From Globomyces pollinis-pini (Eukaryota; Chytridiomycota; Chytridiomycetes; Rhizophydiales; Globomycetaceae): 58,198 nt of DNA. Each line of letters begins with the position of its first letter. The stretch's first letter is position 1. The notes below the pieces were generated by a model that saw only the letters and a list, made by a program, of their open reading frames with translations, was not told the origin of the DNA and did no database searches. Made by a program: the position numbers and the translations under genes. This document shows positions 20,561 through 56,407 of this stretch, piece by piece. The DNA lies in assembly GCA_025399215.1 (NCBI GenBank), contig MU621186.1, forward strand, positions 1 through 58,198. The letters are read 5' to 3'.

Positions 20561-22296
20561 TTAATCCTTGCACAATACTTTGACAAAATTGGATAAATCA
20601 ACATTCTTTGCTTCAATAGCAATACAGAAAGGATCTTTCTATAGAAAAAGTTAAGCATAATCATAATAATTACTAAGAGTTCAGTCGGTGTAGGTCGCTG
20701 TGACTGATCTTTAATCAAACTAAAGTATGAGATTGAGTTTAATATACCTTCTGGCAATGAACGATTCGAATTCAGAGGAATACTGTCCTTTCGGAAGGGT
20801 TGGTACAGGTTCATGAACGATATATTCAAGTAATTCAAAAACCGATAATGGTTTACCATCAGGTGGAAATGGGAATTTACCTATCACCAATTCAACTAGT
20901 GTCATGCCTAATGTTATTTTACAAAATTGAATACCAAGACTCCACACATCGGATTGTACGGAATACTTTTCCCCTTGAATACGTTCAGGCTTTGATGTTA
21001 ATCATCATAAAAAACTTACAGACATATATCCACTTGTTCCCACAAAGGTATTTGCAACAGAATTGATTAGTTCACCACTGACACCAAAGTCTCCTAGCTT
21101 CACTTCCCCCTGGGAATTTAGCAGGATATTACTTGGTTTGATATCTAATCGTTAGTAAGCTTTTTCTTTTTGGCAGGATGTGATTGAGGTTATGGGTACA
21201 AAAATGTTTGGTTGAAAAGAGGTATTATTTAGGGGTTTGTATTCTACTTCATGATTGAATAAAACTGGAAATAGCCACTTAAAGAAACATGCATATAGTA
21301 TGAATACGTTAAAGACACAATGTTAAAAAGTATACGATTCAAAGAGAAGACATGAAAGTCAAGGAGAGTTGTAGTGTCTGTCAAGGAAAAGAATAAATCC
21401 AATAATCCAATAATTTATGAAATAATTGAATTCGTCATCCAAAACATTAAACTCGTGAAATCAACCATTTACAACAGTAAGATATAAGATCCCATTGCAA
21501 ACATTTAAAGAACAGAAAAAAAGGCTAAAACCTTACCTCTATGAATCAAGCGATGCTTTTCGTATAGATAAGACAGTCCAGACAACGTCGCATGTGCAAT
21601 CTTTCCTGCCACATCTTCAGATACATTCCCAGTTTTCTTATAAACCTGATCCAAAGATCCACAATTCATAAACTCCATACATATACTGATATCACCTTCC
21701 GCTAAAAAAGCTCCATAGAATGATACAATATTTGGTGAATCGCATTGATTTAGGATTTGTAATTCTCTTAATATTTGTTTCCGTACAGAGTTTTTGGCTT
21801 CTACATGGATAATCTTTTCGTTAGTTTTTTTTGGGGAATTACCTAGAGGTTAGATTGATTATGACGAACCTGATGGTTAGTCCAACTGTGAAAGTAGAGA
21901 TTACCTGAATATTAATTTCAAATTCAATGGTACCTAGAAATGAATTAATTATATGTTAAAGCACACCTTTCTAGCCATAATATTTCCAGTTGGTTTATGT
22001 ATAACTTTAGAAACAGTCCCACCAGCACCCGACCCTAATTCAAACAGAGTTTCGATATCCTCTGGTTTTAAATCAAGAGAGCAACTCTTTGGAATGCTCA
22101 TTTCTGCTAGTTGAGGGGCCAAAACTGAAGAAGGAGATTCTATATTTTGACCTGGAGCAACAGCGGACCCTGGCTTTAGATTGAGTTTTAATTTATTCTT
22201 TTTTGGCTTGTCAGTCATTGATTGGGAAAGGAAAAGAGAGAATCGCGCGTTGAAAAGAGAAGCCGAAATTGATTGCCTTGTTTCAACGAAAGCCAT
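20561..22296 (-). CDS. MAP kinase kinase (STE7/MKK family)
   Basis: Seven exons give 356 aa; starting at the internal Met of MTDKPKKNK would give about 330. Kinase landmarks in order: [12 protein letters not shown] (Gly loop), MARK (VAIK Lys), [12 protein letters not shown] (hinge), [12 protein letters not shown] (catalytic loop), GDFGVSGEL (DFG), the activation segment [18 protein letters not shown] with phosphorylatable Ser/Thr, [10 protein letters not shown] and [18 protein letters not shown], the last typical of MAP2Ks. It phosphorylates a MAPK in a stress or mating cascade. Introns: 21814-21966 is a tandem array of five GT-AG units; 21145-21536 (392 bp) is the longest in the window; 20908-20934 (27 bp) has no stop and would be missed by simple ORF calling. 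The C-terminal exon ends in [13 protein letters not shown]. Confidence 0.93.
21814..21966 (-). other. Tandem mini-intron array, five GT-AG units (MAP2K)
   Basis: Reading the minus strand, units lie end to end at 21966-21934 (33), 21933-21905 (29), 21904-21870 (35), 21869-21843 (27) and 21842-21814 (29). Each begins GT and ends AG, and there is no base between units. Units 3-5 contain CTAAC-like branch sites. The flanking exons join ARK to IIHVEAKN exactly as MAP2Ks require, so all 153 bp must be removed. Confidence 0.85.
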
Positions 22297-22492
22297 ACAA
22301 AGAATTCATTAAAGAGGCAAGGGGATACTTTCATCTCAATAGTCAAGGGTATATTTAAAAGGTAAGTATTCGTACTTTATAATTCAAGTATTTCATCAGA
22401 GTATGAATCCATCTTGAACATTGATATTAATGATCCTGGACTAATACTGTTTTCATATGATATTCTGGTTTTTAAAGTTGTCCAGTTTTCAA

Positions 22493-23397
22493 ATGACAAA
22501 ACCATTAGAAAATGAACAAACTGAACTGGTCCTCAATTACTTGTCAGCACAAAATAGACCCTACAACGTCACTGATATCTTGAATAATCTCAAGGGTAAA
22601 GTATCTAAAGCAAATATACAAAAAATATTAAATGAAGCGGTTGAATCTAGTAAATTATTAATACTCTCACTAAAGATAAAATTGTCGTAAAAACCTATGG
22701 AAAACAAATGATCTACTGTCCTATTCAGAATGCAACGGATATATCTCCTGATAGTTTGAATGAATTATCAATGAAAACGAATGAATCTGCTAAAGTAATG
22801 GAAGATTTAAAAGAAAAGGTATTCATTCATATTGGTAACGTTTATGTAGGTTACTAGAATCTATTAGTTTATTCGATAGGTTAATGACTATATATATTGA
22901 TGTTTAGGTAAATGAAGTGTAATGTTAAATATCTAGGTATTTGGGGATTTGTTCATTTACGTTTAGGTTAATGGAAACCTAAAGCGTATTTATCATATTA
23001 TAAATTAACATCACCAATAGTATTACAAAAGTTAAAGAACTCAAAGACTACAGAAGATATGAAAGCAGAACTATCAAATTTGAACGCGGAAGTAATTCGT
23101 ATCAATTAACTCATACAGAACACAAATTTAAAGGAAAAGCTGGAAATGTTACAGAACGGTACACCACTCATCACCACGGAGGAAAAACAAAGGATTGAAA
23201 GTGATTTTGAAGAAATGCGACAACATTGGAAGAATAGGAAGAGAATGTTTAATGAGATGTGGAATACTATTACCGAACATGCAGAGAATCCCAAGAAATT
23301 GAAGGTAATTGATGGCAGGGTTGATTGGTAGGAGAAAGTCGGATTCGAGACAGATGAGGATGTTAAAGTGGATTTCAAGTTGGTGTTTAGCCTTTAG
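22493..23397 (+). CDS. HOP2: Homologous-pairing protein 2 (HOP2/PSMC3IP)
   Basis: Five exons give 203 aa (human protein is about 217). HOP2 works with MND1 to help DMC1/RAD51 in meiotic strand invasion. The N-terminal winged helix reads VLNYLSAQNRPYNVTDILNN, followed by KIVVKTYGKQMIYCP, then a coiled coil, NSKTTEDMKAELSNLNAENT, TPLITTEEKQRIES, WKNRKRMFNEMW, and the conserved end EKVGFETDEDV. Introns: 26 bp after 'EAVES', an array of six GT-AG units at 22819-23031, then two of 27 bp. Splicing across the array gives LKEK|LKNS, a slightly shortened coiled coil; a micro-exon hidden in unit 6 cannot be excluded. Its presence implies a sexual cycle. Confidence 0.85.
22819..23031 (+). other. Tandem mini-intron array, six GT-AG units (HOP2)
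   Basis: Units abut at 22819-22849 (31), 22850-22879 (30), 22880-22907 (28), 22908-22936 (29), 22937-22966 (30) and 22967-23031 (65). Every boundary reads AG followed by GT. The only frame-preserving join is from AAAAG at 22818 to TTAAAG at 23032. The last unit is longer and contains an alternative acceptor at 23020. Confidence 0.8.
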
Positions 23398-23718
23398 TCA
23401 TTTCTCTCGTGTTTGATTATGGGTTTAATATAGTTGTACTTTGCATTTTAGTCTCGTGATTAGATGAGACTCTCATCTAATTGGAATCTGTTCAATGAGT
23501 TTGATGTTGGATTGGTATCTTGTACTTAAGTGTACAATGAAATAACTTTAATATTTTCGAACGCACTTTAATAGTACCAAGAAATGGGTTGGTCATTTGC
23601 TTTAGTAACGTGATTACGGATTCAGACTTTATGGACACGAACTAGATAAAGTAAAATGTACAAATGAAAGTGAAAGTATGAGGTTGTATTTGAGACTAAG
23701 TAAATAGTACACACTAAA

Positions 23719-24323
23719 TTAATAGTAAGCGGGAGTATTAGCCCATTGACCGCCGTTTGAAGAACCAGAGCTATTAGAGTTCAAACTAGCTCTTTTTGGA
23801 TTGAAGCCCATACTTTTCCGTTTAGGATTGAAGGACATTCGTTTGTTGTTGTCTAAATAATTATGATGTTTTTCGGTTGGGGCATCTCTACGTTGACCCC
23901 ATTGACCAGGTCTATCAGGTCTAGCCCAACTCTTCTTTGATTTCAAAGCGACGGGAAAGAATAAATTGTTTAGTTTGTTTTGAGCGTTGAAAACATCCTG
24001 TTGAGTATCTCCTGCAATTTGAATAGCGTTTTCTATTGTGAGAATGATTATAGAGTACTAGTATGAATGTAAGAGATATCAGTACAGGTGTCTAAAGCAA
24101 TTTGTCTAAAATTTAGAGAGTCAAGAACAATACTGAATTTGAGTAGCATCGGAACCATAAGAAAGTCTTTGATTATCGAAATCCAAAGGGCAGTAAATAA
24201 GTCCGATTATATCTACCATCAATGGAATACTAACGAACCTTGTTGAATGCAATTGTCCATATGAGGTTTGTCAATGTAAAGAATAACTTCGTTTCTTTTA
24301 CCGTTTAAAGTACGCCAACACAT
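23719..24323 (-). CDS. Hypothetical protein with basic Asn/Ser/Gly-rich tail
   Basis: Four exons with introns of 26, 28 and 26 bp give 174 aa. The first half looks globular (MCWRTLNGKRNEVILYIDKP, then DIIGLIYCPLDFDNQRLSYG, and IQIAGDTQQDVFNAQNKLNN). The second half is basic and low-complexity with repeated FNPKR (MSFNPKRKSMGFNPKRASL), Arg-Pro-Gly-Gln, and ends NGGQWANTPAYY. This resembles an RNA-binding tail, but no family is recognised. Total spliced length is a multiple of three, supporting the exon model. It lies tail to tail with HOP2. Confidence 0.65.
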
Positions 24324-24495
24324 GATTCATTTATCGAAACATGGCTTCACTTTTTTAAGTAACTGAAGACTTGGATAGTTTTATGAATAGAATGAATATT
24401 GAACTAATAAATCCTTAATAATTAGTCTGAGTTTTTTGTCAAGTATCTCATTCCAATGCATTGGTATTTTTTACCAAATTCAAACAGAATTGGAA

Positions 24496-27312
24496 ATGAA
24501 ACAGAAATCTTCTGCTGATTCAGATGACCCTTATTCTTCCCTGTCTCGAACTATCTCATCAGATAGACTCTCGTTATTCGGTCACTCTCCTATATCATCT
24601 CATCTCAACTCGCTATCCTCTGATCATGTCAAATTAAACACTGGAGGATCTTTAACTGCTCTCTGTTTATCTCCTAACTTGGACCGTATTGTTGTTGCTG
24701 GAAGGGATATCCTAAGTATCTTATTATCACATTCATCTATAGAAATATTCTCTACGGGTCCAAATCCACAGGAATTATTGAACTTACGTGCTGGTGTAAA
24801 GATATCTAAAGTATCTAGTACTAATGATGTCAAATGGGGTGGTCATCAATCTCAAAACTTAATTGTTTCTGCTACTTCTACTGTAATCCATTTATGTTGA
24901 TTTATCTCAGGGTGCTATTGTCATCTATGATATTGAGAAGTCTACTTACGAAAAGCAAGGTATCTCATCTCCAACATTGACCATAAGGTTGATATTTAAA
25001 ACTCATTGTTGGTAGATAGAGTCCTTTCCGATCATAAACGAGCAGTCAATCGTATATCAATTCACCCTGCTGAACAGTCTTTACTACTTACAGCATCACA
25101 AGATGGAACAATGCGAATTTGGGTAACAGCTACACCTAGACTTACACCTATCAGGATTTAAGATCAAAAGGACGTGCTAAATTTGTTTTGGATGGAAAGG
25201 CAGAGAGTGTTCGGGATTGCCAATTTAATCCTGCTTTAAATTGGTCTTTGGCTGCAGTGTTTGATAATGGTTGTTTACAGACTTGGGATATTCGTTCTCC
25301 TAAACAATTCGAACGCAAATGGTCGGCCCATAATGGTTTGGCATTGACTGTCGATTGGGATCATCATGGTAAATTGATTGCTACAGGTATTCATCTTTTC
25401 ATTTCTGATATACAGGTTTGTCAAAACACTTACAATTGAATTAAGGTATTATTGCTTCTATAACCAATGAATTAGGGGGCCGTGATAAAGTCATCAAAAT
25501 ATGGAACTATGAATCAGAATCGAAACGATCCATTCACAATATACAAAGCATTGCACCCGTATCAAGGGTAAAATGGAGACCAGGTATTTAATCACCACCT
25601 GACCAAACAAGGATATGACACACAAATCGCAACCTCATCACTTACTATGGATAATCGTGTGATGGTTTGGGATTTCACACACCCATACCTTGCTCAATAC
25701 TGTTTTGAAGAGCATGATGATGTCGCTACTGGTACCTCATATGTTCTAAACCCACAGGCTTACAATGGCAAGATTCAAATTCAATTTGGACATGTTCGAA
25801 GGATCAAAACTTTGGACTATTCAATCTGTCACAAGCATATCGACCTTTAGAATTAATCAATTACCATGCTATTGGGACAAACAATTTCGGAACGATTGTG
25901 TTTGCAAATGTAGAAACTAAGGAACAACCACCTATTGATACCCTATCGACATCACATTCACATTCTTCCAATTTGAACTTGGATGCAGAACTCGTGGAAC
26001 CAATGCCAAGTGTCGTGACTGGTCCACAATTTTTGGGTCAAATCCAAACACTATCATTTGATTACAATAGATTTGCAGTGTTGGCTGAATTATACTCGTT
26101 CGATTGTAGTTCCATTTATGATACTTGTGAGAATAATTATAAGGTATGTAAAAATGTTATTGATAAAGATAGGTGGCTATGGAATTGGATTTATCTGATA
26201 TTGCGCATGTTTGGAAAATGATTCAATTGACTTACGGACAAGATCCACTATCGCCCATCAACCTGAATAAATCACACCTGGAATATCAAGGTAATTCTCG
26301 GCTCTTTTATATCTAGAAACACTTGTGGAAGGTGCGGCACAGAAAACGTACCATTTCCTCAAAGGCGATGAACAAATCCCAAATATTGAGGATACAGGTC
26401 CCCATTTGTTGATGGATCCTGTCCCCGGGCCATCTACTGAGTTCTACATACCCGAAAGCTCATCCGAAGATAGCGATTCCGAATTTTTTGTCCCCACGAA
26501 CTACAAAAAACCCGAGACGGATCTTGAAACGATGAATGATCCGATGCATAGAGTATTATCGGTATCCCAAACCACACCCACTGATTTATCAATCAACACA
26601 GCATTTAAAAAACTAAGCACCACTTTTGAAGATAAATCAGTTGATATGTCACAATCTGTGAAATCAGTATTTGAAGACCAATACTTTAAAAAAGACATTC
26701 CACCAAAGCAATTTATCGAAGCACCAACGGATGTCAAAGTATCACCATGGACAGCAACGAACCTTGCAAACGAACTGCTTGAGCATTTCAGCGACCAGGT
26801 AAACGAGTCTTTCTGCTAACCTTAGGTCGATGTCCAAATGAATGTCTACATTATCATGACTCTACGCAACGTTGTCTCATTCGCAGATACGTTAGTTGAA
26901 TACTATACACGAGAGTATATAGATTTGTTGCAGAGATTTCAACTATGGCAAGCGGCCACCAAGATCATCAACCATTCTTCTATTGCGTCTATCCGAAGTT
27001 TGAATGAGGTGAGGGAATTTCGGTTGATTGTAGGAATCCACAACGATACATACGAGTTGTTTTCAGTGCGGAACTGCGGTGCCTGTTACATTGCGTACGT
27101 CATTCCGGTGTGAGAAATGTGATGCATGTGTGAGCTGGTGTGTGGTGTGTCATAAAGTGGTTAAGGGTGTCTATGTTTGGTGTCAGTTTTGTTCACATGG
27201 TGGGCATATGGAGTGTTTGGATGGTTTGTTTATATCTTGGATTTATTTTTTAGGGTGGTTTTGTGGTGAGACTATGTGTCCTACCGGTTGTGGACATGAA
27301 TGTACATTTTAG
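24496..27312 (+). CDS. WDR24: WDR24-like GATOR2/SEA complex subunit
   Basis: Twelve exons give 806 aa. GATOR2 (yeast SEACAT) relieves inhibition of TORC1 by GATOR1 at the vacuole or lysosome. An N-terminal WD40 propeller (about residues 50-420) shows DHKRAVNRISIHP, ASQDGTMRIWDLRSKG, LQTWDIRSP, ATGGRDKVIKIWNYE and RVMVWDFTHPYLAQ. A helical region follows (EYYTREYIDLLQRFQLW), and a C-terminal zinc ribbon/RING with CFQCGTA, CEKCDACVSWC, WCQFCSHGGHMECL and CPTGCGHEC. The ATG at 24496 is the first in frame. Introns are 25-32 bp except for a two-unit array (24960-25015) and a three-unit array (25387-25475). The intron-free sum is exactly 807 codons. Confidence 0.92.
24960..25015 (+). other. Tandem mini-intron array, two 28-bp units (WDR24)
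   Basis: Units 24960-24987 and 24988-25015 are both 28 bp, GT...AG, with no base between. Retaining the second unit brings in an in-frame stop (TGA). Removing both joins KQ to DRVLSDHKRAVN, the expected WD40 sequence. Confidence 0.85.
25387..25475 (+). other. Tandem mini-intron array, three units (WDR24)
   Basis: Units 25387-25415 (29), 25416-25445 (30) and 25446-25475 (30) abut with AG|GT junctions. Only removal of all three gives IATGGRDKVIKIW, a canonical WD40 blade; the middle and last units contain stops. Confidence 0.87.
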
Positions 27313-27460
27313 TGTTATATATTGGATTTTTTATCTGTGATTTAACTTGGTTTTCACGTTGCTTTCTTCTTTGAGATATCGCGTCGTACATTTCTTGTTC
27401 TTCTTTGGTCTTTGAATCATATAATTTTGGTGGTTCTTTAGTTTCATCACCATCTGTCAT
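27281..27460 (-). CDS. Possible small protein, antisense to the WDR24 3' end
   Basis: A 59-codon frame starting MTDGDETKEPPKLYDSKTKE and continuing with EEQEMYDAISQRRKQREN, a hydrophilic helix typical of a small coiled-coil protein. Its last ~10 codons overlap the WDR24 coding end on the opposite strand, and a splice earlier in the frame is possible. No family recognised. The composition looks like real protein, but nothing else supports it. Confidence 0.35.
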   Translation of the reverse strand: MTDGDETKEPPKLYDSKTKEEQEMYDAISQRRKQRENQVKSQIKNPIYNTKMYIHVHNR

Positions 27461-27560
27461 AATTCTAACTACTGTGGCTTGAGGCTTGTGGCTTGTGGCT
27501 GCGAACCTGTCTGGTTATATGAATGTTGAAACCTTTCCAGTTATCAAAAAAAAAATTTAA

Positions 27561-28627
27561 ATGTTTTCTGCCATACTAACATGCTTAATATTACCATTAC
27601 TTGCCCAAGAAACAACCGAAAATTCTACTGTTGCTGGGTCTGCCAAAGAAGTTCAATGTGATGCTGGATCATTGGAAAACTATGATATGCCTGGTCATAT
27701 TGCAGCCGTCTTTATTGTATTATTGGTTTCGGCTGTTGGTACTATTGGCTCACTCTTTCTCTCCAGATTCAAATCAAATTTTATTCTATTTACCATTATA
27801 CCGTTGGTGAAAATGTTTGGTATTGGTGTTGTAGCTGGTAAGTTTTTCCCTCTTACTTATGATTAGCAACTGTTTGGATTCATTTATTACCAGATGCATT
27901 TGAAATATTCTCAAATCCTTGTTTGAAGGGTGAATGGACCAAATATGGAACTGCTTATGTTGGTTTATTTGCTTTGACTGCTTCGTTTCTCGTTCAACTT
28001 ATTGAATTTTTTTCTGCTAGTGTTCATGGTCATGGTCATTTAACAGCAGCTCCTGGAGATTCGTATGAATCTATTCACACCGATCAGGCTTTGGCCACTG
28101 ATGCTGTTGTATCAGAAACATGCAAGGATATCGAATCACTAGATGAAAAGCAAAAGAAACTTGAAACTTATGTGTTAGAAGCCGGGATTATTTTCCATTC
28201 ATTTATCATTGGAATGGCTCTTGGTGTTAGTACTGAAGACTTTTTGGTGTTACTGATCGCCGTCAGTATTCATCAAGCATTTGAAGGTATGGCATTGGGG
28301 GTACTTCTTGGAGAAATCAAGACTCAATTTTTGAACAAGTTCTACCTTGCATTGTTATTCCCATTAACAACTCCTATTGGAATGGTAGTTGGTATCTTGG
28401 CCAAAGATTCTCTCAATTCAAACTCACAATTCTCCATTCTATTCGAAGGTATCATGATATCTTTATCTGCTGGTATTCTCATGTATAATGTATACGCTGA
28501 ATTGATTGTACGTGAAATCAATCATAACAAAAACTTTTTGAAATGCTCAAGGAAATTTCAATTGGTTTCATTTTTCTTTATGTACGTTGGAGCAGCAGGT
28601 ATGGCAGTACTCGCTATTTGGGCATAA
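27561..28627 (+). CDS. ZIP-family zinc/iron transporter
   Basis: Two exons joined over a 29-bp intron give 345 aa. ZIP proteins import Zn2+ or Fe2+ into the cytosol. A signal-like N-terminus (MFSAILTCLILPLLAQ) is followed by three membrane helices, a His-rich cytosolic loop (SVHGHGHL), and the helix IV/V metal-binding motifs HSFIIGMALGV and HQAFEGMALGVLLGE, then three more helices. The WIHLLPDAFE motif of the ZIP/ZRT group is restored by the splice. The spliced length is a multiple of three. Confidence 0.93.
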
Positions 28628-28908
28628 TAAATGATATTTTAATGGATATCAGTCGTATAAAATTTCACATTTAAACTATTTGATTACATTATTATACAGA
28701 GATTCGTTAGTGATGATATTAGCTTTGACGTGACTTATTATGATAAGTTCACAGCCAGATCAACTCGTCTCCTCACAATCAACATTCTTAGCATCTAACA
28801 ACCATTCTAATACAATTCTAGTTCATTTTCAAGTTCATTTTCGTGCCATGTAATCTGATTTGAATGAATTGGTTGAAGGTCAAGATTGAAATTTTTTCAA
28901 ATTTATTC

Positions 28909-29769
28909 ATGCCACTCCAGGTATCGGAATCTGATGAATCTGAAGATGGATTTGAAGTTGAAGATATCCTACAGTTTAGAAAGACTAAAGTATACCATCA
29001 AAGGTTTATCATTATAGGTACTGGAAGAGATAGTAACCAGATAGGTAACTGTTTTGATTTTGATAATAACTAGGTATTGATTATTCAAGTTGATTATACA
29101 GGGACGAGAGCAATATTTGATCAAATGGAAAGGGTATTCACACGACGAGAATACTTGGGAAGATGCTGGTATTTAAAATTAACTTTTGATATCTATAGAG
29201 AATATCCATGTATTTTAACTGAATTAAACAATTGTTTTTAGGCTCAAGAAATAATGGATCGATTTTGGAAGTTGGAAGCAGAGAGGAATAAAGTAGCATC
29301 AACAAAAGAAAAACGTAAATCAAAATCAAGTACGGAATCAAGATCCAAAGTAAGTTCAAACAAATCTAATAACCTTCGAAATTAATAGAAACCCAAACCA
29401 GATCCAACGACTACCACACCAACTAAAAACGCTGTCACCGAAACAATACCAGAACTAGAAAAATATGTTAATGGTAATGAATGTCAAAATAATCAATTCT
29501 CAGATGAAATTTATCTAGATGAAAGTCATTTACCTAAACATATTCTTACCGAACAAAGTTGGGATAAATTCGTGGCAGAGGTTGCAACGATTGAATCTGG
29601 AATACAAAATGATTTTATCGTTTATGTGAATTGGAAAGATGGGTTAAAAACTCATCATAGTTCGTTAGTGGCAAATAAGAAATTACCACAAAAGGTTTGC
29701 TTAGATGCAGGTTTAATTTTTTTGTAGTTGATCAAATTCTATGAAAAGCATTTACGGTTTTCTGAATAG
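28909..29769 (+). CDS. HP1-like chromodomain/chromoshadow protein
   Basis: Six exons give 204 aa. The chromodomain (EVEDILQFRKTK|GREQYLIKWKGYS, then ENTWEDAENIHAQEIMDRFW) binds methylated H3K9; a charged hinge follows (KEKRKSKSS), then a chromoshadow domain (SWDKFVAEVATIESG, HHSSLVANKKLPQKLIKFYE) for dimerisation. Features: a four-unit intron array at 28990-29101 and an 11-nt micro-exon at 29199-29209 (ENIH). The last intron (33 bp) rejoins PQK to LIKFYEKHLRF. The start is uncertain: ATG at 28909 (MPLQVSES) is read here, but ATG at 28864 with a 42-bp intron (28879-28920) also keeps frame. Role: heterochromatin silencing. Confidence 0.9.
28990..29101 (+). other. Tandem mini-intron array, four units (HP1)
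   Basis: Units 28990-29017 (28), 29018-29044 (27), 29045-29073 (29) and 29074-29101 (28) run end to end, each GT...AG. The chromodomain is continuous only if all 112 bp are removed (FRKTK joined to GREQYLIKW). Units are not obvious sequence copies of one another. Confidence 0.88.
29199..29209 (+). other. 11-nt micro-exon in the HP1-like gene
   Basis: Flanked by introns 29169-29198 (30 bp) and 29210-29241 (32 bp). Its 11 bases complete the chromodomain helix ENTWEDA-ENIH-AQEIMDRFW, matching the family's ENTWEPAENL pattern. Skipping it would shift the frame. Confidence 0.85.
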
Positions 29770-29908: not shown

Positions 29909-30966
29909 TTAATACTTTCTGACCATTTTTTTCCGAATATTGGGACCACTGGATATAGTGGATGGATTGGAAGATGACAATGGTTGATTACCTACTAAAG
30001 CGCTCGTAAGTGTCTCGTCTGAGGGCTTGAGCAGATCTTGAATAGCTCGTACAACTTGATCTACATCAAATGGAATGGACACTTGGCCAGATGATGTCTC
30101 TGGCACTGTTAGTTGTGGAGTCTTAAATACGGGAAACGTTTCCATCTCAAGCAAATCATCATCCGTATCATTCTCCAAATCTTCTATTGTTCTTTCTAAT
30201 GGTTCTACCATTTCCAACATTTCTTTTTGTATTGTATCCTGATTTAATACTTTTATCATTGCTGGACAATAATAACACATCCAATTGAAAGTGAATGATG
30301 GGATGCCTGTACATGTATATGCCAACTGCCATCCTTTGATACCTAAACCATCAATTCAATCAACATGACGTACCTAAAGAAATATGATGAGATTTCATGA
30401 TGATTACCTAGATTTGCTACCAATAACCGAAAATAACAAGTGAAACTATGAGTGATAAAGTACCAATGAGAATCCGTACTTGAGTATAACCAAATCTCAG
30501 GTTTAAAAGTACCTTTGATGATACATAAACAAATCCTACCAAATTCATACTCTTCAAGGAAATAAACAACACCAAATTTAGGAAGACAATTGGCACTAAA
30601 TTTCCCATCATGTTTAATAATATCAGAGAATCGATTGAATTTGATAGATCCAATTTCAATCAATTGTTGATTATACGGATCATGTTTAGTGAATTGATTA
30701 AACCATTTCAAATCAAATCCATTGTATTGTTTAAGGAAATCAATCAAGTCTATTGGTAACGAAAATAGATTTCCTCTTTGAAATAATTGGATTTCTTTTG
30801 ATGTTGTAGGAGTATTTTTTTGAAATTCAACTTGTTTGACTCCTTTCAGAGTTTTGATGTATCTAATGAACCCTCCCAGTAGATTATCCGAGTTGATTCT
30901 TCTCATTTTGGATACTTTGTTGATGATTTTTGAAATCAAACTACTTAACGCGTTTCCAATACGCAT
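29909..30966 (-). CDS. TPGS2: TPGS2-like tubulin polyglutamylase complex subunit
   Basis: Two exons joined across a two-unit intron array (30343-30407) give 330 aa, or about 310 if the Met of MRRINSDN is used. TPGS2 is a subunit of the neuronal/ciliary tubulin polyglutamylase complex and has a SMI1/KNR4-like fold. Landmarks: PIDLIDFLKQYNGFDLKW, IEIGSIKFNRFSDI, VVYFLEEYEFGRICL, PEIWLYSSTDSHWYFITHSF, TCYFRLLVANLG|IKGWQLAYTCTGI. The C-terminal ~100 residues are acidic and Ser-rich. Its presence agrees with a flagellated life stage. It starts about 130 bp from the divergent methyltransferase gene. Confidence 0.83.
30343..30407 (-). other. Tandem mini-intron array, two units (TPGS2)
   Basis: On the minus strand, units 30407-30374 (34 bp) and 30373-30343 (31 bp) abut with AG|GT. 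Removing both joins VANL-G to IKGWQLAYT, matching the family pattern 'THLGLPQWQYA'. Confidence 0.82.
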
Positions 30967-31094: not shown

Positions 31095-32078
31095 ATGAAC
31101 GAATGGGATGGCTTTGCCAAAACGTACTCTTCAACACTTGGATTAGCTACAAAACCGTTTAGTATAGATATACTCAAGTCAATCACAATCAATAAAAACG
31201 ATACAATACTCGATGTCGCATGTGGTTCTGGTACAATTCAAACTGCACTAGTGGATTTTGTAAATTTATGTAAATATTAAAGTTAGATTAATGATGGATT
31301 AATCTCAAAACAAGTTAAAATGATTGCTATTGATAACTCTGGACAAATGATTCAAGAAGTAGAGGAATTAAGATCAAAATACCCGGTTCTGGATCCAATA
31401 ATGACCACTCAATGCATAGATGGAGAATTACTAAAAGAAATTGCAGATGAATCAATAGATATCGTCACTAGCTCTTTAGGAGTGATACTGTTTAAAAATA
31501 GAAACAAAGGCTTTCGAAATATATTCAGGGTATTGAAACCATCAGGACAATTTGTGTTTAGTAAATGGGAATCCACTCCAAAAGATATTGGGATGGGAAT
31601 TATTGATTTGACATATTTCATATTTGATTTGTTTCCTGGTCAAGAAGAAGCTGCCATGAAACGTAGACAATTGCTAAATAATGATGGTAAACCAGTTGAT
31701 GAAATTAGAATGAAGAAATCTTTGAAAACAATTGGTAAGTAGTGACATTTTCTCAATCGAGACACATATGAATACTTTCCATTGAAGAAGCATCACTATG
31801 ATTACTATTATGTGCAATGATTGATTTGTTTAGGGTTTTCAGAAGCCAGTTGGTTCCACTCTTATCATACAATGTTTTTCAAATCTTTCGAAGATCTTTG
31901 GCAATTCATCATGGAATTCTCACCGAAAGTGAGTTTACCACTGAACTTGTTAGATACAGATAAATTGGCTGATATAAAGAGCAAAGTGATGCATTATTTC
32001 AAGTCCTACAACTCATTTTCTAATGCTGATTCTATTGTTTTACATAATCATCAAGTTATATATAATGCTATTAAATAA
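31095..32078 (+). CDS. Class I SAM-dependent methyltransferase
   Basis: Three exons (introns of 27 and 99 bp) give 285 aa. Motif I is ILDVACGSG, followed by VKMIAIDNSGQMI (motif post-I), IVTSSLGVILF (motif II) and FRVLKPSGQFVFSKW (motif III), the layout of UbiE/COQ5-like enzymes. The C-terminal part (GFSEASWFHSYHTMFF) may form the substrate lid. The substrate is unknown. The second intron (31735-31833) is longer than usual and is not a clean array. It is divergently paired with the TPGS2-like gene. Confidence 0.85.
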
Positions 32079-41413: not shown

Positions 41414-41530
41414 AAAAAGTAATATAATTTCACGTTACTTTGCGGATGATGAGTTGAATAAAAACAGCAATACGAATAATAAAATTAAAAAATTTTGTTG
41501 GACCTAATCACTTTGTTTGAAGTGTGGAAC

Positions 41531-41935
41531 ATGGACGGAACAGATTCATCAATTGACCTAGATCTCTGCAGGGTTGAAACCAATCACGATGCATTTTACC
41601 CAATCCCAGCGATAAACAACCATAAATGCTATAGAAGTGAAAATCCTAGACCGCCAAATTCATTCATCTTATTTCGCAGAGATGTAGCACCAAGAATGAA
41701 AGACAGATATCCATCCTTATCTAATATTCAAATATCCAAAAGATTAGGTAATTTGTGGAGAATTGCTCCTTTACACGTCAAAGAAGTGTATACCATGAGG
41801 TATCAAAAGGCAAAGGAAGTATTTGAACAAAATAATCCTGGTTATAAACTACAACGACGGTCTACCCATGATATCAAAAGAAGGAAAACCAAGAACCAAT
41901 TCCCTGAAGAACTGCTAGCAGCTTGTCTTTTATAA
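41531..41935 (+). CDS. HMG-box transcription factor, MATA-like
   Basis: Intronless, 134 aa. A canonical fungal HMG box of the mating-type class: RPPNSFILFRRDVAPRMKDR, then LSNIQISKRLGNLWR and EVYTMRYQKAKEVFEQNNPG, followed by a basic tail (RRKTKNQF). Such small HMG proteins include the sex-determinant SexM/SexP and MAT factors as well as other developmental regulators. The first ATG in frame is 41531; the open frame extends upstream without a start. A MAT role is inference from type and from the paired divergent HMG gene. Confidence 0.88.
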   Translation: MDGTDSSIDLDLCRVETNHDAFYPIPAINNHKCYRSENPRPPNSFILFRRDVAPRMKDRYPSLSNIQISKRLGNLWRIAPLHVKEVYTMRYQKAKEVFEQNNPGYKLQRRSTHDIKRRKTKNQFPEELLAACLL

Positions 41936-43345: not shown

Positions 43346-43453
43346 AATAATGACTCTTTAATACAGTTAGTTACTAAAAATGAGCTTAAATTGCAATGAG
43401 TAATTCTTTGTCAGAAATCATCCAATTGAGTTAATTTTTTTTTATAGAAATTA

Positions 43454-45531: not shown

Positions 45532-47417
45532 ATGCTGGTTCACTTGAGTTTGTTGTTACTGGGCACACTTGCTGCTCCCTTGACTGGTGCACAGCACGAG
45601 TTGGAATATGTTAAACGTGATAATGTTCCTTTGCCTCTATTCCATCCTCCTGCCATTACAAAGACGTTTCCTTTGGAGTCAATCGACAAGAGGGACGAAA
45701 CGCCAGAAACCACTCCACCCATTGCAGAAATATTAGAATTGGCCAAACAATCTTTGGCAAAAGAATACAATTTAGATGTGTCGGATATTTTAATTAAAGA
45801 ATACTCAACTGATAAAGCTGGAGTGACTCACATTTATGGAGTACGTACCATTGAAGGCATTCCTGTGGAAAACAATACCTTCAACGTTCATGTTATGAAG
45901 GGAAAGGTGATTTCAATGACCTCAAGTTTTGCTGGAACTTTGAAACGAAATGTTCAAGTCAGTCCACCAAAGGAAGTGATTTCTCTTGCTGAAGCAGTAA
46001 CTATTGCAGAAAAACAGTACAACACTCCACGAGACTCATTCCCTCATAAAATGGTTTATATTCAACTACCATCTGGTAAATTCGCTTACTGTTATCAATT
46101 CCAATTGAAAGATTTGGAATCAAAAAAACCAAGATGGTATCAAGTCACTATTGACTCTGCTATTGGGCAGGTAGTTCAGGCTGTCAACTACGTACGATTT
46201 GCAACATTCAAAGTCATTCCTTTACCAGTGAACGATCAAACGTCTGGTAAATTTAAGACCGTGGTGAATCCAGAATATCTTCCTGCATCACCATTTGGAT
46301 GGAATAAGGATGCAAATGGTAGCTACACTGAGACTCGGGGAAACAATGTGGATGCACAAATCAAAGGATCTAGTTTCCTACGTGTTGATGGAGGAAAGAA
46401 CCTTACTTTCAAGTCTGACTTCAATGCATCAGCATTTGCTTCGTCTGCTGAATCCCAAAAGACAGCCATTATCAATTCATTTTACAGTACGTTCTATTTG
46501 ATACTAAAATGTAGTTGCCAACTTACTTCATGATATCTTTTATGAATATGGGTTTATTGAAGCCGCCGGTAACTTTCAAAATAAGAATTTCAAAAAGAAT
46601 GGTGTAGAAGGAGATGCTGTTACTGTATTAAACAATCAAGGGATCAATTCCGCTTTCTTTTCCACTCCACCAGATGGTCAAGCTGGAGTATTGAAGCTTA
46701 GTGTTTGGCAAAGTACTCTCCCATTCCGACATACCGCACTTGACAATACTATTACAGTTCATGAATACTTTCATGGTGTTTCTTCTCGTACCACTGGTGG
46801 TAGTCGACAAGCGAACTGTTTAGATCAACCTGAAGGACTTGCTCTTGGTGAAGGTTGGAGTGATGCAGCAGCAATGTTTTTGACTAGAAAAGCAAAAGAT
46901 AATCGCAATACTCCATTCATCATTGGAAAGTACGCGAAACCAATCTTGGAGTTTGGTCTTCGTAGTGTACCCTATACTACAAACATGACAGAAAACAGCT
47001 TGAAATGTAAGCAAACCATTAATGCTAACTCTATTAGTCAATGATTTGGTAGAAAGAATTCCAGATGATCAAAGCCATTTAGCCGGTGAAGTTTGGGCAA
47101 CTGTGTTGAACGAATTATATTGGAAATTAGTTGATAACTATGGATATTCATCGAAATGGCACGAATCAGACAGTTTGTCTGGAAATATAGTTGCATTGCG
47201 ATTAATAATGAAAGGATTGGCTCTCCAACCTTGCAATCCAACATTTTTACAAGCCAGAGATGCAATCATTAAGGCAGATGAATTCTATTATTTAGGATTT
47301 TTCAAATGTGATATCTGGAGTGCCTTTGCCAAACGTGGATTTGGAATTGATGCTAAGGCTACAAATTACACAAATGGACATGCTGTCCCCAAGAGCTGTA
47401 AATTATGGAATTTCTAA
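45532..47417 (+). CDS. M36 fungalysin metallopeptidase, secreted
   Basis: Three exons (introns 28 and 31 bp) give 608 aa. Signal peptide MLVHLSLLLLGTLAAPLTGA, then a FTP propeptide domain (ILIKEYSTDKAGVTHIYGVR), then the M36 catalytic domain: HDIFYEYGFIEAAGNFQ, HEYFHGVSSRTTGG (HExxH zinc site) and GLALGEGWSDAA with the third zinc ligand Glu. It degrades extracellular protein such as keratin, elastin or prey and host protein. It is full length for the family, and all catalytic residues are present. Confidence 0.95.
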
Positions 47418-47620
47418 CTTTGTCAATGTTGTTCTATAAAATAAAAGAAATCAAAATGTACGAAATAAATAAGGGTTAACGTTAAATTTTAGAGTTTTAA
47501 TCAAGTTTCCTTACTCAATGCGACTCAAAGCGGAAGTAGAAACGAAAGCTTTTGAACTATAATCAATCGATTAGAGTCATTTGCAGCATTGCAAACAGTT
47601 TTTCAATCACTGGTTATTTA

Positions 47621-48990: not shown

Positions 48991-49307
48991 CCCACTGTCT
49001 ACACTAAATTTTGTTTATGTAGATGTGAAAGCCATCAAAGATTCAGGCGGAAAACTATTGTGTACAACTTATTGACTTAGGATTATTAGTCGAGAGCTTG
49101 ATTCGTAGTGATTCTTCACTTGTTAGATTCCATCGTAAGCAGGTCTATTAAAATTCCCAAATGTCCCAAACCACACTTCATTCTTTGGTACTTAATCAAA
49201 ACTGGCTTATGAAGAACAATCGTTAAAAGCTATATATGATGTTTACTAAAAACGATGTGGACTTGAATATTAAACAAAATGGTTTGGTACTCAACTTGAA
49301 AGAGAAT

Positions 49308-50561: not shown

Positions 50562-50716
50562 TTTTTTAAAATCGATATGAAAGAATTACGTGATCCAAAG
50601 GTAAATACAATGATTCCATTGTTCATTCCTAACTACCATCCTTTGATCTTTGATATCCCAAAAAAAACCATGAATTTCATTGAATCAAATCTAAAAAAAT
50701 ATTTCTACCTCAAAAC

Positions 50717-53236
50717 ATGAAAAGAACTTCAAAAAATCAGATTATTAAAGGCCATTCCGATGATGAGGATGAGGATACTGTCCCAAAAGTATGATCCTTT
50801 TGAATAATACTAGGAATTTCAAAGAGCGTCAACTGATGTTCTTGCTCGAAGACAGATTGCTATGCCGAAAAGAAGAAATATTGGAATGGGAACTAATTCT
50901 ACCTTAAAACCAACTTCAATTATTGAATCAAAACCTTCTGTAAGTTCTACAAGTCAATTATTGTCCGATGTGATTGATAAAGAAAATATGATGTTAGATT
51001 ATGCGAAACGAGTGGTGGGTTTGAACAAAGGGTTCATCTCCGTGTTAAACAATGCAATGTCAGTAGATGAGTCGGTAGATTTATCAGTGTTATGCCATGA
51101 CTACCTTAAATTTCGCAAATTGGAAAATGAAAAGGCCAACACTGTAGACAATAATATTATTAAAGCACCTAAAAAAACAGAAACTAATTTAGACAGTGAT
51201 CTGTTTACAGCAAGCAAAAAGGTTGATATCAATCATATCAAGTTAGAACCTGTTATTGCACAAAAACATGTTGAACCAGTTATAAAGTTTGCAGCACCTC
51301 CAAAACCAATCGTTAATGACACCCCAAAGCCATTCACAGGTTTTAGCTTTGGCAAAACTGCAAATGCAAATGTTCCCGCTCCTGTTCTACCAGTAAAAGC
51401 TTCCCCAGTAGTGAATGAAAATAATAAACCGGCAGAAACCATTAAACCGGTCGGCACAGATACTCCACAAATAACAAGGTAATGTTAACCAATGTTCTGA
51501 TTTATTGCTAGTCTTGCTAAATCTCCAGTCAAATCTACCGCAACCCCACCTCCATCCAAGAGAAAAGTTGATGATGAAAATGAAAAACCAACGGCTTCTA
51601 TTCCATTCGGTACCGGTAACTCTGCTTTCACCTTCGGATCAAGTTTGAGCACACCAGTTGCACCAGCTCCTAATCCATTAGGATTTTCATTTGGGGGAAC
51701 TTCAATCCCATTTTCAGCTGTTAAAGATACAAGTAAAAAGGATGATACTGGATTGGGTAAATTTGAAGTTAAGCCAATGGAATCAAAAGATACATCAACG
51801 TCTAAACCTACTAGCTTTTCTTTCGGTAGCAAACCAGATATGAAGGACTCTAAGTTGGAAGAAACAAAGGAAACCAAACCATTTAGTTTCGGTGCTTCTT
51901 TAGATAAAGATTCTGGCCCAACTTTTGGAAAACCACCAACATTTTCTTTTGGAGCAAAACCGAATGAATCTACAAGTACAACTGAAACAAAAGGATTTTC
52001 TTTTGGGGCAAAAGCTAGTGAATCTGCAAGTAACACTGAAACAAAAGCATTTTCTTTTGGAGCAAAAGCTAGTGAATCTGCAAGTACCACTGAAACAAAA
52101 GGATTTTCTTTTGGAGCAAAAACTAGTGAATCTGCAAGTACCACTGAAACAAAAGGATTTTCTTTCGGTGCTTCACTGAACAAAGGAGAAAGTCAAGCAA
52201 CAGATAAAAACTCTACAGAAAAACCCACCGCTGCAACTGGTTCTGGATCATTTAGTTTTGGTTCATTCACTAACAAAAACACTGAAACGGTTGTGAAGGA
52301 TTCCTCGGATGACAAGAAGGAGTCGGCTCCAAAGCCATTCTCATTTGGGAATGATCCTTCCAAAAAACCTTCAACAGGTTTTGATTTTAGTAGCAAACCA
52401 GCTGGTAGTGAATCGAAACCTTCGATGTTTAGTTTCAGTAATACACAAGCTCCAGCTTCAAATAGTACTACTAGTTTTGGCGTTTCCTCAACGAATTCTG
52501 AATCAAAACCATTCACTTTTGGAAGTATTCCAGTTGCTACCAATTCATTTTCCACTTCTTCTACCCAAGGGTCAGCTTCTACTGGTAACGAAGTCACTTC
52601 CTGATAATTTTTTTAGGAGGAACATCTGGGTTTTCATTTCAAACAGCAGCAACCGCTACAGATTCCAAAAATCCCACATCAACCTTCAACTTTTCTAACC
52701 TTGGAACTCCTAAACCATTATCTTCAACATTTCAATTTTCCTTAGGCACACAACCGCCAGTGAATACTGAAGCAACGGCAAATGCCGAGACAACTGGTGG
52801 AGAAGAGGGAGACGCTATGGAAGCTCTACCGCAAGTAGGAGATGCTCTAATGAAAGGTGAAGGAGAAGAAAATGAGGTATTTTAGCTTTCAAAGTACTTA
52901 CCATGATAGGATACCTTGAATAGTATCAAGGTGAAAATATTTACGGAAGGGGAAGCAGTAGGTAAATGGGATTCCATAGGGGTTGGTTTATTAAAACTCA
53001 ATCAAGCCAAAGATAAGAAAAGTTCAAGATTACTATGTAGAGCCGATCAATCTGGTAGAGTATTAATCAATGCTAGTGTTTATTCCAAAATGCCGATTGT
53101 TAAAAGTAATGAAAAGAATTTCACTATTATTTTACAAGTGGAAGGGGAAATGAAGAAATTTTTGATACGTAGTGGTAAAGATAGTGATTTAGTAGGATTT
53201 TTTGATAACGTTACCAAAGTTCGTGATCAATTATAG
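50717..53236 (+). CDS. NUP2: NUP50/NUP2-like nucleoporin
   Basis: Five exons (introns 25, 33, 32, 33 bp) give 798 aa. The N-terminus carries the NUP50/Nup2 importin-alpha-binding block (FQRASTDVLARRQI, then MPKRRN). The middle is FG-repeat rich (FSFG, FTFG, TFGK); the C-terminus is a RanBP1 domain (VKIFTEGEAVGKW, RLLCRADQSGRVLINASVYS). It sits at the nuclear basket and helps release import cargo by binding Ran-GTP. A perfect-phase 54-bp tandem repeat lies in the FG region. The sequence upstream of the ATG (50562-50716) is the shared promoter with the LRR-like gene. Confidence 0.92.
51942..52157 (+). repeat. 54-bp tandem repeat, four copies, in NUP50/NUP2
   Basis: Four 18-residue units of the form FSFGAKxxESxSxTETKx, nearly identical between copies 2, 3 and 4. 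The repeat adds FG motifs in register and is the likely site of length polymorphism. Confidence 0.9.
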
Positions 53237-53347
53237 TATTGAAATATATGTATCCTTATATGGATCTATCAAAATATTTTTTCTTGTCATGATCAAATGA
53301 AAATGATTAGACAAATAATTGTTTTATATTAGACAAGAGTGAGTATA

Positions 53348-54267
53348 TTACGATTCATATACAAAATTGAATCTGGATAAGAGCATTGGTAACGTGGCTA
53401 ATTGAGAACCATATCTAGCTTCATTTTCATGTAATTCGAATAGTGGTACTGCCAATAATTTCATATTTTTTGGAATTGATAATAATCCTAATCATCAATC
53501 ATTTTTTTCTTTTCACGTACTTTCTTTTGGTAGATGAAGTAAATAGATTTTTCTTATTTCTTTAGGTCTCTATAAATGTCAAATACTTTCTTTTTTTTTA
53601 TACCTTGATATGAGCAGGTGTATAAGGATACTAAAAACATATCAATAAAATAAATAAAATCATATCATCAATTTAAAGAAATTAAATCAAAAAAACAAAT
53701 CATTGGAATAGATTCATACCATAGTAGTTTCAAAATTAGGTCTCCACCAAACACTTTTATGAATTTATAAATAAAATTACCCTAATAATTCACCAACTTG
53801 AATATCTTGATTCACATCTTTAGTTTCATTTTTCAACAAGATTGGATCTAACTGTTGAGTTAAAATAGATTGTAATCCTTGAATTTCATCTTGACCAGGT
53901 TTTAACGTATTTCCAGGTCTAAAAAAGTCAATCCATCCATTCATCCATTAATGAAATAATTGATATCCATGATAAAAAATGAAATTTGATTACAATTTAT
54001 AAAAGTTTTCAGCTAATTTAAATAACATGACATGAGGATGAGAATGATCATGTACAATCAAAACACCTTCGACTGTAATTCTCATTCCTTGACTTTCATA
54101 TTCTTCTAATAATCTTTGCATTTTAATTCCTGTATTTTGATCTTGTTCTACTTGAGCATCTTTTACACCAAATAGATAATTCTTTAATGGATATCTATAC
54201 GGTCATTAATTAGGATGGTATACAATTTCAAAGTTGGTTGTTGTGATAAGTGATGATTTAAAGTCAT
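53348..54267 (-). CDS. NUDT21: Cleavage factor Im 25-kDa subunit (NUDT21/CPSF5)
   Basis: Seven exons with introns of 29, 75, 27, 89, 34 and 33 bp give 210 aa (human 227). The protein binds UGUA in pre-mRNA and guides poly(A) site choice. Landmarks: LYPLKNYLFGVKD, GMRITVEGVLIVHDHSHPHV, FYKLPGNTLKPGQDEIQGLQ (Nudix-like, catalytically inactive in the family), WWRPNFETTMYPYTPAHIK, RPKEIRKIYLLHLP, and the end SRFNFVY. The first ATG is 21 bp from the start of the divergent ZNF277 gene. The total is exactly 211 codons, which supports the six splices. Confidence 0.93.
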
Positions 54268-54288
54268 TTGAAAAAGTTTTTTTCAAAG
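54268..54288. promoter_or_regulatory. 21-bp gap between divergent start codons
   Basis: Start codons of NUDT21 (minus, ATG at 54267-54265) and ZNF277 (plus, ATG at 54289) face away with only 21 bp between. Either their leaders overlap inside the other gene, or one uses a later start. Confidence 0.6.
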
Positions 54289-55730
54289 ATGGATATCAAT
54301 GTATTGGATACAGAACCAGATACAGTACCAACTACGGTATTAAAACCAAATATTAAAGTATTGGATACCAATGGAGAATTTTGGTCAGGTCAAATTTGGA
54401 TTTGTCCAATATGTTTAACGTATTCAACAAAATTAATGAATCAAACTTTGAATCATTTACTACAATCTCATCAAATTAAAATATTAAATATCAATTCAAT
54501 CATACCATTTTTAGATACTTATTTAAATTCATGTTTGAATGATTTGAAATTAGAAAATTCAAATCAAATGATTGAATTAGGTTCATCAAATGATAAACAA
54601 GATTTAGATACAAGATATAATTTACAAAAACAAAAATTAATTGAAATATTAGCAATACAAGAAAATGAAAGAAATTCAAATCATCAAATTCATTGTCTAT
54701 TTTGTAGATTTATTACCGATAATCAGTAAATCATTCGGATATTAATGTATAGTACAAATTTATTTAAACATTTATTTGATGAACATGGATTATTAATTGG
54801 ATTATTGGATAATTTGGTTTTTGTAGATGAATTCTTGATGATTTTAAAACAAAAGTTACAACAGTATATCGATATCAATGGTATTCACTTTTTTTTTTGA
54901 TAGATTACTGTGTCTTTATTGTGAAAAAACGTTTACTTCAAATGCAGTGTTACGTAAACATGTAATCTTTTCAAATTCATTGATTGATAGATGAGAAAAA
55001 AGAAACATTTTCAAGGTATTTATGATTCTAACAATTTCATGTATTAGTGAATCCAAAAAATTCAGATTATGATAAATTTTACTTGGTCAATTATTATCAA
55101 GATGTTACCGTTACCACCAATACAATAGACCCCAATGATGAAGATACAGGTGATGCGTAAGTTGAATCATTCCATTAAACCAACTAGACAATGGGAAGAT
55201 TGGCAAGATCTAGTTGAATCAAGAACAATGTGTCTCTTTGATGATACTTTACATGAAACTCCAGAACTTTGTAATGAACATATGAAAAGTATTCATCATT
55301 TTGATTTATTTGAATTGAAACTTGATGATCAATGTAAGTATATCGTTCAACTCATTTTAATAGTATTGGATTTTTATCAAAGAATTAGACTGTAATATTG
55401 AAAAACTTATTGAACTTAGGTAATTCATATTTTCAAAAATAATTGATGATTAGGTATTGTTTATCATTTAACGTTGTTTAGGTATGTCATGAAATCTCAA
55501 ACTGAATTATCAATAGGATAAATTATATTCGATCAAAATACTCAAAATGTATTTGTTTTCAATGTGATCAAAGTTTTCAACATCAAGATTTACTTGTTGA
55601 ACATTTAAATACTCATCAACAATTATGTCCATCAAAGAATCATTCACTTTGGCATGATCCATCTTTTTTATTTCCATTTTTTGAAAATGATCCATTATTG
55701 ATGCTTGATATGGATGATGATGAAATGTAA
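54289..55730 (+). CDS. ZNF277: ZNF277-like C2H2 zinc-finger protein
   Basis: Eight exons give 375 aa. C2H2 fingers: CPICLTYSTKLMNQTLNHLL (SH..H), LLCLYCEKTFTSNAVLRKHM, CLFDDTLHETPELCNEHM, and CICFQCDQSFQHQDLLVEHL. The family-typical blocks NPKNSDYDKFYLVNYY and WEDWQDLVESRTM are present, and the acidic end (MLDMDDDEM) matches. ZNF277 binds uS5 (RPS2) in animals and plants. Introns are 27-40 bp except the last, a four-unit array (55392-55516). Translation starts 21 bp from the NUDT21 ATG on the other strand. Confidence 0.88.
55392..55516 (+). other. Tandem mini-intron array, four units (ZNF277)
   Basis: Units 55392-55419 (28), 55420-55453 (34), 55454-55481 (28) and 55482-55516 (35) abut, each GT...AG. 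Removing all four joins LLDFYQRIRL to INYIRSKYSKCICF, matching the family pattern (LINFIR). Confidence 0.85.
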
Positions 55731-56023
55731 CAGATCGTGGTTTATTTGTGGGTTGACTCATTGCAATATAGAATAAAGAATGGCATTCTCATGTACTGTA
55801 TAGATCGTTTTTTTAGATACGTTTGACAACAAGTTGGTTTCTTGAGCACATCAATCTTGGTCAACGATAGACTTCAAATATCCTCATATGTTGCATTGTA
55901 ATAGGTGATATTGTAAAATTTCAAATAGTAAGTATTGAAATCGAGATATTTCAATCAATAAGCTCATAGTATTGATGGTTACGAAGCAAACAAGTAGGTT
56001 TTATAATTGGTCATCAAATTGTA
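55731..56023. other. Intergenic region, 293 bp
   Basis: Convergent space between ZNF277 and NDUFA1; nothing recognised. Confidence 0.4.
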
Positions 56024-56407
56024 TTAGTAAGCAAACCAAGAACCAGCAGATTCCAATTCCAAAGCACTATTACGACTAAATTGTTCAGGAGCTCTCGCAT
56101 TAGCCTAAAAAGAAAACAAATCAATAACATATTTAAAATACAGCTTGTTTGTTTACATTTCCAGTCAATCGACTATCACGTTCCATCATTCTACGATCCC
56201 ATTTATCTACACCATATCGTTTAGGCTAATGATTATGAATTTTAAAATCATAGAAAACCTATTCATCAATGGTTAGTGATATACCTTTCCATCATGTTCG
56301 TATTTATGCCAGAGTTTGACACCTTCTACACCAGCAATCCAGGCCCCTCCGATGAAAGCCATGGAAACTACTGATTCCATTGGGAATACAAATTTTGTTC
56401 TTGACAT
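56024..56407 (-). CDS. NDUFA1: Complex I subunit NDUFA1-like (NI9M)
   Basis: Three exons give 90 aa. The N-terminal helix (MSRTKFVFPMESVVSMAFIG) anchors in the inner mitochondrial membrane; WHKYEHDGK, PKRYGVDKWDRRMMERDSRL and TGN match the fungal 9.5-kDa subunit (NGGKxxRYDxDxWDRxMMERDRRLTG). Its presence shows that this organism keeps respiratory complex I, unlike some related intracellular parasites. The first intron (56226-56284) is a two-unit array; the second is 52 bp. Confidence 0.85.
56226..56284 (-). other. Tandem mini-intron array, two units (NDUFA1)
   Basis: Minus-strand units 56284-56259 (26) and 56258-56226 (33) abut with AG|GT; the first has a CTAAC branch-like site. Removing both joins HDGK to PKRYGVDKWDR. 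Confidence 0.85.

Follow-up and report, generated by a model that had tools for sequence, protein, structure and literature searches.

The stretch of DNA considered here (the window), 58,198 nucleotides (nt) long, is contig C97 of the 18.5-megabase (Mb), 459-contig genome of Globomyces pollinis-pini, a chytrid of the order Rhizophydiales; over 88% of its length, the spliced MEK protein from the window is 100% identical to a deposited protein of this species. Between positions 21814 and 56284, at eight places in seven genes, the intervening sequence is not a single intron. It is an array of GT...AG introns, each 26-35 nt long, with zero bases separating the AG of one unit from the GT of the next. 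The initial annotation had counted 28 units at these eight places in seven genes. The places and genes stand, and the units number 27: the surplus one was likely an 18-nt stretch taken for a sixth unit in the Hop2 gene, which is instead part of a 19-nt exon, in agreement with deposited protein P0241.

Eight arrays in seven genes

Introns were called with a home-made spliced gene finder, built and trained on the window, on 200 kilobases (kb) of contig C1 (C1:1-200000), and on six further loci of 2-3 kb. It contains no term for exon length and permits two introns with nothing between them; it fuses some adjacent genes, and its long predicted introns are unreliable. The six loci (L029-L034) were picked for carrying arrays, so totals that include them are biased. 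In the window and C1:1-200000, intron length is uniform at about 28 nt, mostly 23-37, and 585 of the 653 predicted gaps are 22-40 nt long. Single introns of at most 45 nt average 28.5 nt (standard deviation 3.0, n=589) and peak sharply at 28 nt. To our knowledge, introns of this length are very short for a fungus.

The arrays are as follows:

21814..21966, minus strand: MEK gene, five units of 33, 29, 35, 27, and 29 nt in gene order (153 nt), between ...NIMARK and IIHVEAK...
22819..22966, plus strand: Hop2/PSMC3IP gene, five units of 31, 30, 28, 29, and 30 nt (148 nt)
24960..25015, plus strand: WDR24 gene, two units of 28 and 28 nt (56 nt)
25387..25475, plus strand: WDR24 gene, three units of 29, 30, and 30 nt (89 nt), the third set by hand
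28990..29101, plus strand: within the chromodomain of a chromodomain/chromoshadow protein, four units of 28, 27, 29, and 28 nt (112 nt)
30343..30407, minus strand: SMI1/KNR4-family gene, two units of 34 and 31 nt (65 nt), boundaries set by hand, matching the TAGGT pattern described below
55392..55516, plus strand: C2H2 zinc-finger gene, presumably ZNF277-like, four units of 28, 34, 28, and 35 nt (125 nt)
56226..56284, minus strand: NDUFA1/MWFE gene, two units of 26 and 33 nt (59 nt)

Array boundaries are those of the gene finder except where hand-set. The finder recovered six arrays whole and one WDR24 array in part (its third unit was called exon), and missed the SMI1/KNR4 array. A further call at 28599-28945 is false; it contains a "unit" of 322 nt. 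Seven of the eight array lengths are not multiples of three, so seven arrays, if kept, would shift the reading frame.

With the arrays taken out, conserved proteins can be aligned across the junctions. For MEK, the alignment to human MEK1 is gapless across the junction, and the product equals deposited P0001 there. The Hop2 model is identical to deposited P0241 at 213 of 213 residues (one Hop2 query retained a 35-nt intron; the query compared with P0241 was free of it). Removing the two-unit WDR24 array gives a gapless alignment to WDR24 over YEKQ/DRVLSDHK (the slash marks the junction), with which deposited P0121 agrees. Removing the three-unit array as well (its third unit by hand) yields ..IATGGRDKVIKIW.., the reading found in WDR24, and the protein again equals P0121; here the alignment has a one-residue gap a few residues ahead of the junction. 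The deposited G. pollinis-pini models for MEK, Hop2, and WDR24 are thus all without the array stretches.

The chromodomain array, once removed, leaves a protein that matches the chromodomain profile at positions 1-52 of 53; an HP1 alignment spans the junction, with a one-residue gap directly past it. The NDUFA1 product aligns without gaps over HDGK/PKRYG to a NIMM subunit of complex I and matches the MWFE family at positions 1-55 of 55. In the hand-spliced SMI1/KNR4 protein, the family match stops short of the junction, where the support consists of an open frame; in the spliced zinc-finger protein, an open frame is joined by C2H2 family matches at residues 136-224 and 297-319, elsewhere than the junction. 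Outside the window, three genes chosen for their arrays align without gaps through them: PHYHD1 through ten units, DCN1 through seven, and MCM8 through seven (at a junction about 12 residues inside the aligned region). Portions of predicted proteins served as queries for the chromodomain gene, PHYHD1, DCN1, and MCM8; for DCN1, predicted sequence next to a 317-nt intron was judged wrong and omitted.

Frequency and likeness of the units

Each array interior was dinucleotide-shuffled 20,000 times, and perfect tilings by GT..AG units of 22-38 nt were counted. None appeared for the MEK, Hop2, and zinc-finger arrays; eight appeared for the three-unit WDR24 array and 19 for the chromodomain array. 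For the two-unit arrays, the counts were 786, 404, and 377 (3.9, 2.0, and 1.9%), the SMI1/KNR4 array, with chance tiling of about 2%, having been entered one base off. A lone two-unit array is weak evidence.

The whole genome was scanned for three TAGGT words separated by two gaps in the same range, a pattern that involves no gene model. Matches numbered 7 for gaps of 6-18 nt, 206 for 20-32, 5 for 34-46, and 47 for 48-60. The reversed word, which is the commoner, gave a flat spectrum over the same ranges (112, 100, 105, and 91). The higher count at 48-60 corresponds to double spacing, a second rung of the same ladder, and many of these matches lie inside arrays found at 20-32; a few (for example in C66 and C278) do not look array-like. 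When the first word was CAGGT, 57 matches were found, versus 30 for the reversed form. Analyses of individual matches used 100 listed of the 206; these represent 65 separate places, of which a few may be chance. The longest array seen has ten units over 285 nt (PHYHD1, on C12, L029:1885-2169).

Units look like normal introns of G. pollinis-pini. Mean unit length is 29.5 nt (standard deviation 2.4, n=47) versus the 28.5 nt of single introns, a small shift (Kolmogorov-Smirnov p=0.026). The 164 distinct units in the listed matches, found with no splice profile, also peak at 28-29 nt; a branch-like TRAY motif occurs in 108 of them, versus 54 once they are shuffled. Position +3 is A in 121, somewhat less often than among predicted introns (670 of 789).

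Exons of zero length between introns number 75 in all data, array-chosen loci included, versus 2, 0, 1, 0, 3, 0, 0, and 3 for lengths one through eight. With exonic positions of the splice profile switched off, zero-length exons numbered 17 in the window and 13 in C1, and one-base exons 0 and 2; there were none of two to four bases. Arrays and single introns were called in a ratio of 8:97 in the window (one array false, one missed) and 8:540 in C1 (one array doubtful, with a 170-nt unit), so the window is richer in arrays than C1, where another run gave two further tilings. Scaled to the whole genome, seven arrays per 200 kb would amount to about 650, a figure drawn from one contig only.

These counts bear out, in the window and genome-wide, the initial annotation's claim that arrays recur and that their junctions are zero-length exons resembling ratchet points. 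The annotation named as grounds for refutation a number of abutting AG/GT units across the genome that does not exceed chance; this refutation failed by about 30-fold (206 versus 5-7 at the adjacent shorter and longer spacings).

How similar are the units to one another? Among the listed matches, 14 of 100 adjacent unit pairs exceed the 99th percentile of a null drawn from different contigs, and nine exceed the 99.9th. The 14 come from C12 (four), C68 (three), C60 (two), and C47, C31, C59, C2, and C38 (one each); C12 and C68 supply five of the nine. A broader comparison covered all introns from the window, C1:1-200000, and the six loci, together with units of the listed matches. Among within-array pairs, 13 of 198 scored at least 12. 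This threshold was reached by 8 of 181,779 pairs that spanned two contigs and by 15 of 129,376 pairs formed by different introns within one source. At a score of at least 14, the counts were 6 of 198 within arrays and 1 of 129,376 for different introns of one source, and near-identical introns at unrelated loci were absent from the compared sample (0 of 181,779 different-contig pairs). All six of these within-array pairs sit in two of the chosen loci. The one same-source pair scores 16 and is made up of single introns at distant positions in C1.

The PHYHD1 array contains two identical adjacent units; units 1 and 8 are alike, and units 2-6 form another family, which suggests block duplication. 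A genome search with two arrays and their flanks found no second copy of either. Near-identical neighbors in some arrays outside the window mean that local tandem duplication makes part of the arrays, and to judge by unit similarity, duplication of whole units is clear in a few of them. The earlier description of units as not obvious copies of each other holds in the window, where the best of 31 within-array pairs scores 5, and in C1, where the best of 24 does the same; it fails at L029 and L030. Among the matches with gaps of 48-60 nt, further long arrays with units that look near-identical by eye lie at G000:C349:15689-15861, G000:C194:3383-3560, and G000:C225:6566-6724. Finally, an AG at the exon end together with a GT at the start of the next exon was found at 4 of 14 arrays, compared with 18 of the 589 single introns. 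Of those four, WDR24b reflects a unit missed by the finder, and AGGT microhomology at array ends is suggestive only.

A proposed route of removal and growth of the arrays

These observations suggest a model in which every array consists of mini-introns strung together, each able to function on its own. Some arrays, at least, would have started as one intron of about 28 nt whose whole units were tandemly duplicated and then diverged while keeping their splice signals. The spliceosome would join the nearest donor to the nearest acceptor (intron definition). Once a unit is excised, the upstream part would meet the next GT directly, leaving a shorter array that is still valid and that would dwindle to nothing. 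Given that all units run from GT to AG, the mRNA should be identical whatever the order of removal, or if several units leave in one step. Unit-by-unit removal, in any order, appears the likeliest route, and the stepwise removal suggested in the initial annotation would fit the arrays. That inner junctions are intact, though most units are dissimilar, suggests that the junctions are used, and presumably that selection acts on them. Taken together, strings of mini-introns, in part grown by tandem duplication and removed by nearest-pair splicing, are probably the best explanation overall.

Two introns in the window contrast with the arrays:

21145..21536, minus strand: unsegmented intron of 392 nt in the MEK gene, with no tiling into GT..AG units of 22-38 nt
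31735..31833, plus strand: intron of 99 nt, not tileable, a prediction of the gene finder, in a gene that we take to be methyltransferase-like

Removing the 392-nt intron restores HRDIKPSN and equals deposited P0001. It shares the MEK gene with a five-unit array, in a genome of 28-nt introns. A spliceosome restricted to short lariats, which the initial annotation had proposed, thus finds no support, nor does a strict limit to short introns.

Several points weigh against the mini-intron model. This unsegmented intron exists and others are predicted, so an array could be removed in one step. Arrays were detected through their intact junctions, and this ascertainment weakens the argument from selection on junctions. 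Perfect tilings, which favor the model at 42-70 nt (7 of 13 predicted introns, 0.53 expected), were found in only 3 of 13 at 71-105 nt (0.01 expected) and 2 of 20 at 106-200 nt (0.00 expected), the two longer bins including gene mergers and the tiling run having missed several real arrays. As for duplication, all 13 of the strong within-array pairs come from L029 (C12) and L030 (C68), loci chosen for arrays; within-array scores from the six other sources, the window and C1 included, reach at most 5. In the window and C1, no within-array pair of 55 scores 6 or more, and the mean is -2.49 versus -2.48 for other introns. Duplication is accordingly shown for a minority of arrays only, and it may or may not be the source of the remaining, dissimilar ones.

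Could an array instead be spliced in one step, from first GT to last AG, its inner junctions being unused relics? Joining the outermost pair yields the same mRNA, and the MEK gene, with its unsegmented intron, provides a precedent beside a five-unit array. Set against this are the inner junctions that remain intact where units share no similarity and the sharp 28-nt peak of single introns, which suggests a preference for local pairing (both arguments weakened by ascertainment), as well as the rarity of exons of 1-8 nt between introns compared with the 75 of zero length in all loci. One-step splicing is on balance unlikely.

The second alternative concerns origin rather than removal. Introner-like elements or reverse-spliced introns might insert at AG/GT junctions, so that arrays are built from unrelated introns; an AG^GT target would automatically yield abutting introns. 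The initial annotation had likewise suggested that mini-introns were inserted into splice junctions. The 55 dissimilar pairs of the window and C1 would follow, as would the dissimilarity of most adjacent pairs in the listed matches, and the distant single-intron pair in C1 that scores 16 is of the kind that such insertion might leave. However, strong similarity lies mostly within one array, as the proportions at a score of at least 14 indicate (6 of 198 versus none between contigs and one within a source); units that resemble each other are adjacent or belong to a single array, an arrangement in favor of tandem duplication; and the two arrays searched with their flanks have no second copy. Dispersed introners are thus disfavored, and insertion in general seems rather improbable.

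A third reading takes the stretches for coding sequence or for alternatively retained exons, mistaken for introns; it finds its one support in proteins of Globomyces sp. JEL0801. In alignments of proteins, the sole level compared, JEL0801 is 99% identical to the window in WDR24 and 98% in Hop2 (92 and 93% by BLASTP, which counts the differing stretches). The JEL0801 Hop2 model contains NLLVYSIGIWGFVHLRL, which combines the final part of unit 2 with unit 5 from the window array, and omits stretches of 39, 57, and 54 nt. These pieces of units 2 and 5 seem to be kept in JEL0801. However, extra residues likewise appear in the WDR24 model of JEL0801, at the window's single 27-nt intron, which makes an artifact of minimum intron length likely; the Hop2 model was probably made under such a limit. 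The frame shifts that seven of the eight window arrays would cause, and the three deposited G. pollinis-pini proteins without arrays, lead us to reject the retained-exon reading as very improbable. In the deposited JEL0801 proteins P0122 and P0242, extra residues stand at the 27-nt intron or at array units, and mini-introns were apparently missed. Chance, in that AG/GT is common and a willing reader can divide a long intron into GT..AG pieces, could still account for single two-unit arrays (tilings in roughly 2-4% of shuffles), but as the cause of the phenomenon it is refuted by the spacing spectrum (206 versus 5-7) and by the absence of tilings in 20,000 shuffles for three window arrays, and its probability is negligible.

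The mini-intron model invites a broader and more tentative proposal, to which we would give somewhat under an even chance. Introns in this genome may behave as a self-extending, splicing-neutral tandem repeat, with its register held by selection at each junction and its length growing in steps of about 29 nt; recursive splicing would then run wholly by intron definition, with no exon-definition step. If the same mRNA results whichever GT..AG units are excised and whatever the order, arrays could grow at little cost.

Known architectures and neighboring features

Among the titles and abstract openings listed from the open-access literature, no description of end-to-end mini-intron arrays was found. 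In the zero-nucleotide-exon recursive splicing of Drosophila, AG and GT are juxtaposed, and excision of the upstream part regenerates a donor at the exon end; known ratchet points are for the most part a feature of long introns and, according to the same paper, require a cryptic exon there (PMC8605326). Globomyces arrays share the juxtaposed AG/GT inside the removed stretch. They differ in that they do not lie in long introns (56-153 nt in the window, 285 nt for the ten-unit array) and in that their junctions are mostly 25-37 nt apart, with up to ten units in a row. Such spacing would leave little room for a cryptic exon.

Fungal stwintrons comprise more than one U2 intron and are removed by consecutive reactions, or alternatively in one step (PMC7138796, PMC12403724; see also PMC8469720). 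The introns of a stwintron are so placed that one splits the donor, branch point, or acceptor of its partner. Both architectures compound an intervening sequence from more than one intron, whereas Globomyces units, two to ten per array, abut with donors and acceptors whole and none interrupted. The arrays would work like recursive splicing while standing apart from both its long-intron setting and the stwintron definition. Two Lipomyces cases from PMC7138796 are instructive: in L. starkeyi, abutting donors permit one or two reactions; in L. suomiensis, according to the authors, the first-chosen sites define the smallest internal intron, a choice that would fit nearest-pair splicing in Globomyces.

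Two modes of intron gain also invite comparison. In intron gain by tandem duplication (PMC4974935), duplication likewise provides the splice sites; in that process the duplicated segment is exonic or lies at a boundary and becomes a new intron, whereas in those Globomyces arrays that show duplication whole introns would be copied in place with the coding sequence unchanged. Introner-like elements also multiply introns within one genome (PMC4457414), but as similar copies at many loci, whereas strong similarity in Globomyces is found mostly within one array.

If the proposed reading is correct, zero-length-exon recursive splicing operates here at very small scale, over many consecutive junctions and seemingly with no room for exon definition. 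It would also make a mode of intron growth visible, as arrays of near-identical units and arrays of unrelated-looking ones coexist in one genome. The order and unit of splicing become testable by ordinary RNA sequencing and lariat sequencing. Annotation faces a trap: one deposited model already translates array pieces.

The window holds several other features. Broken reading frames at 2620-3360 (plus strand) are presumably the remains of a copia-type retroelement, an assignment made by eye from a motif. Two long genes at 8782-18884 (minus strand) we take to be HYDIN-like, which fits a flagellated fungus. The gene at 41489-41932 (plus strand) presumably encodes an HMG-box protein, mating-type-like, and that at 45532-47417 (plus strand) is assumed to encode a secreted metalloprotease like those of the M36 (fungalysin) family.

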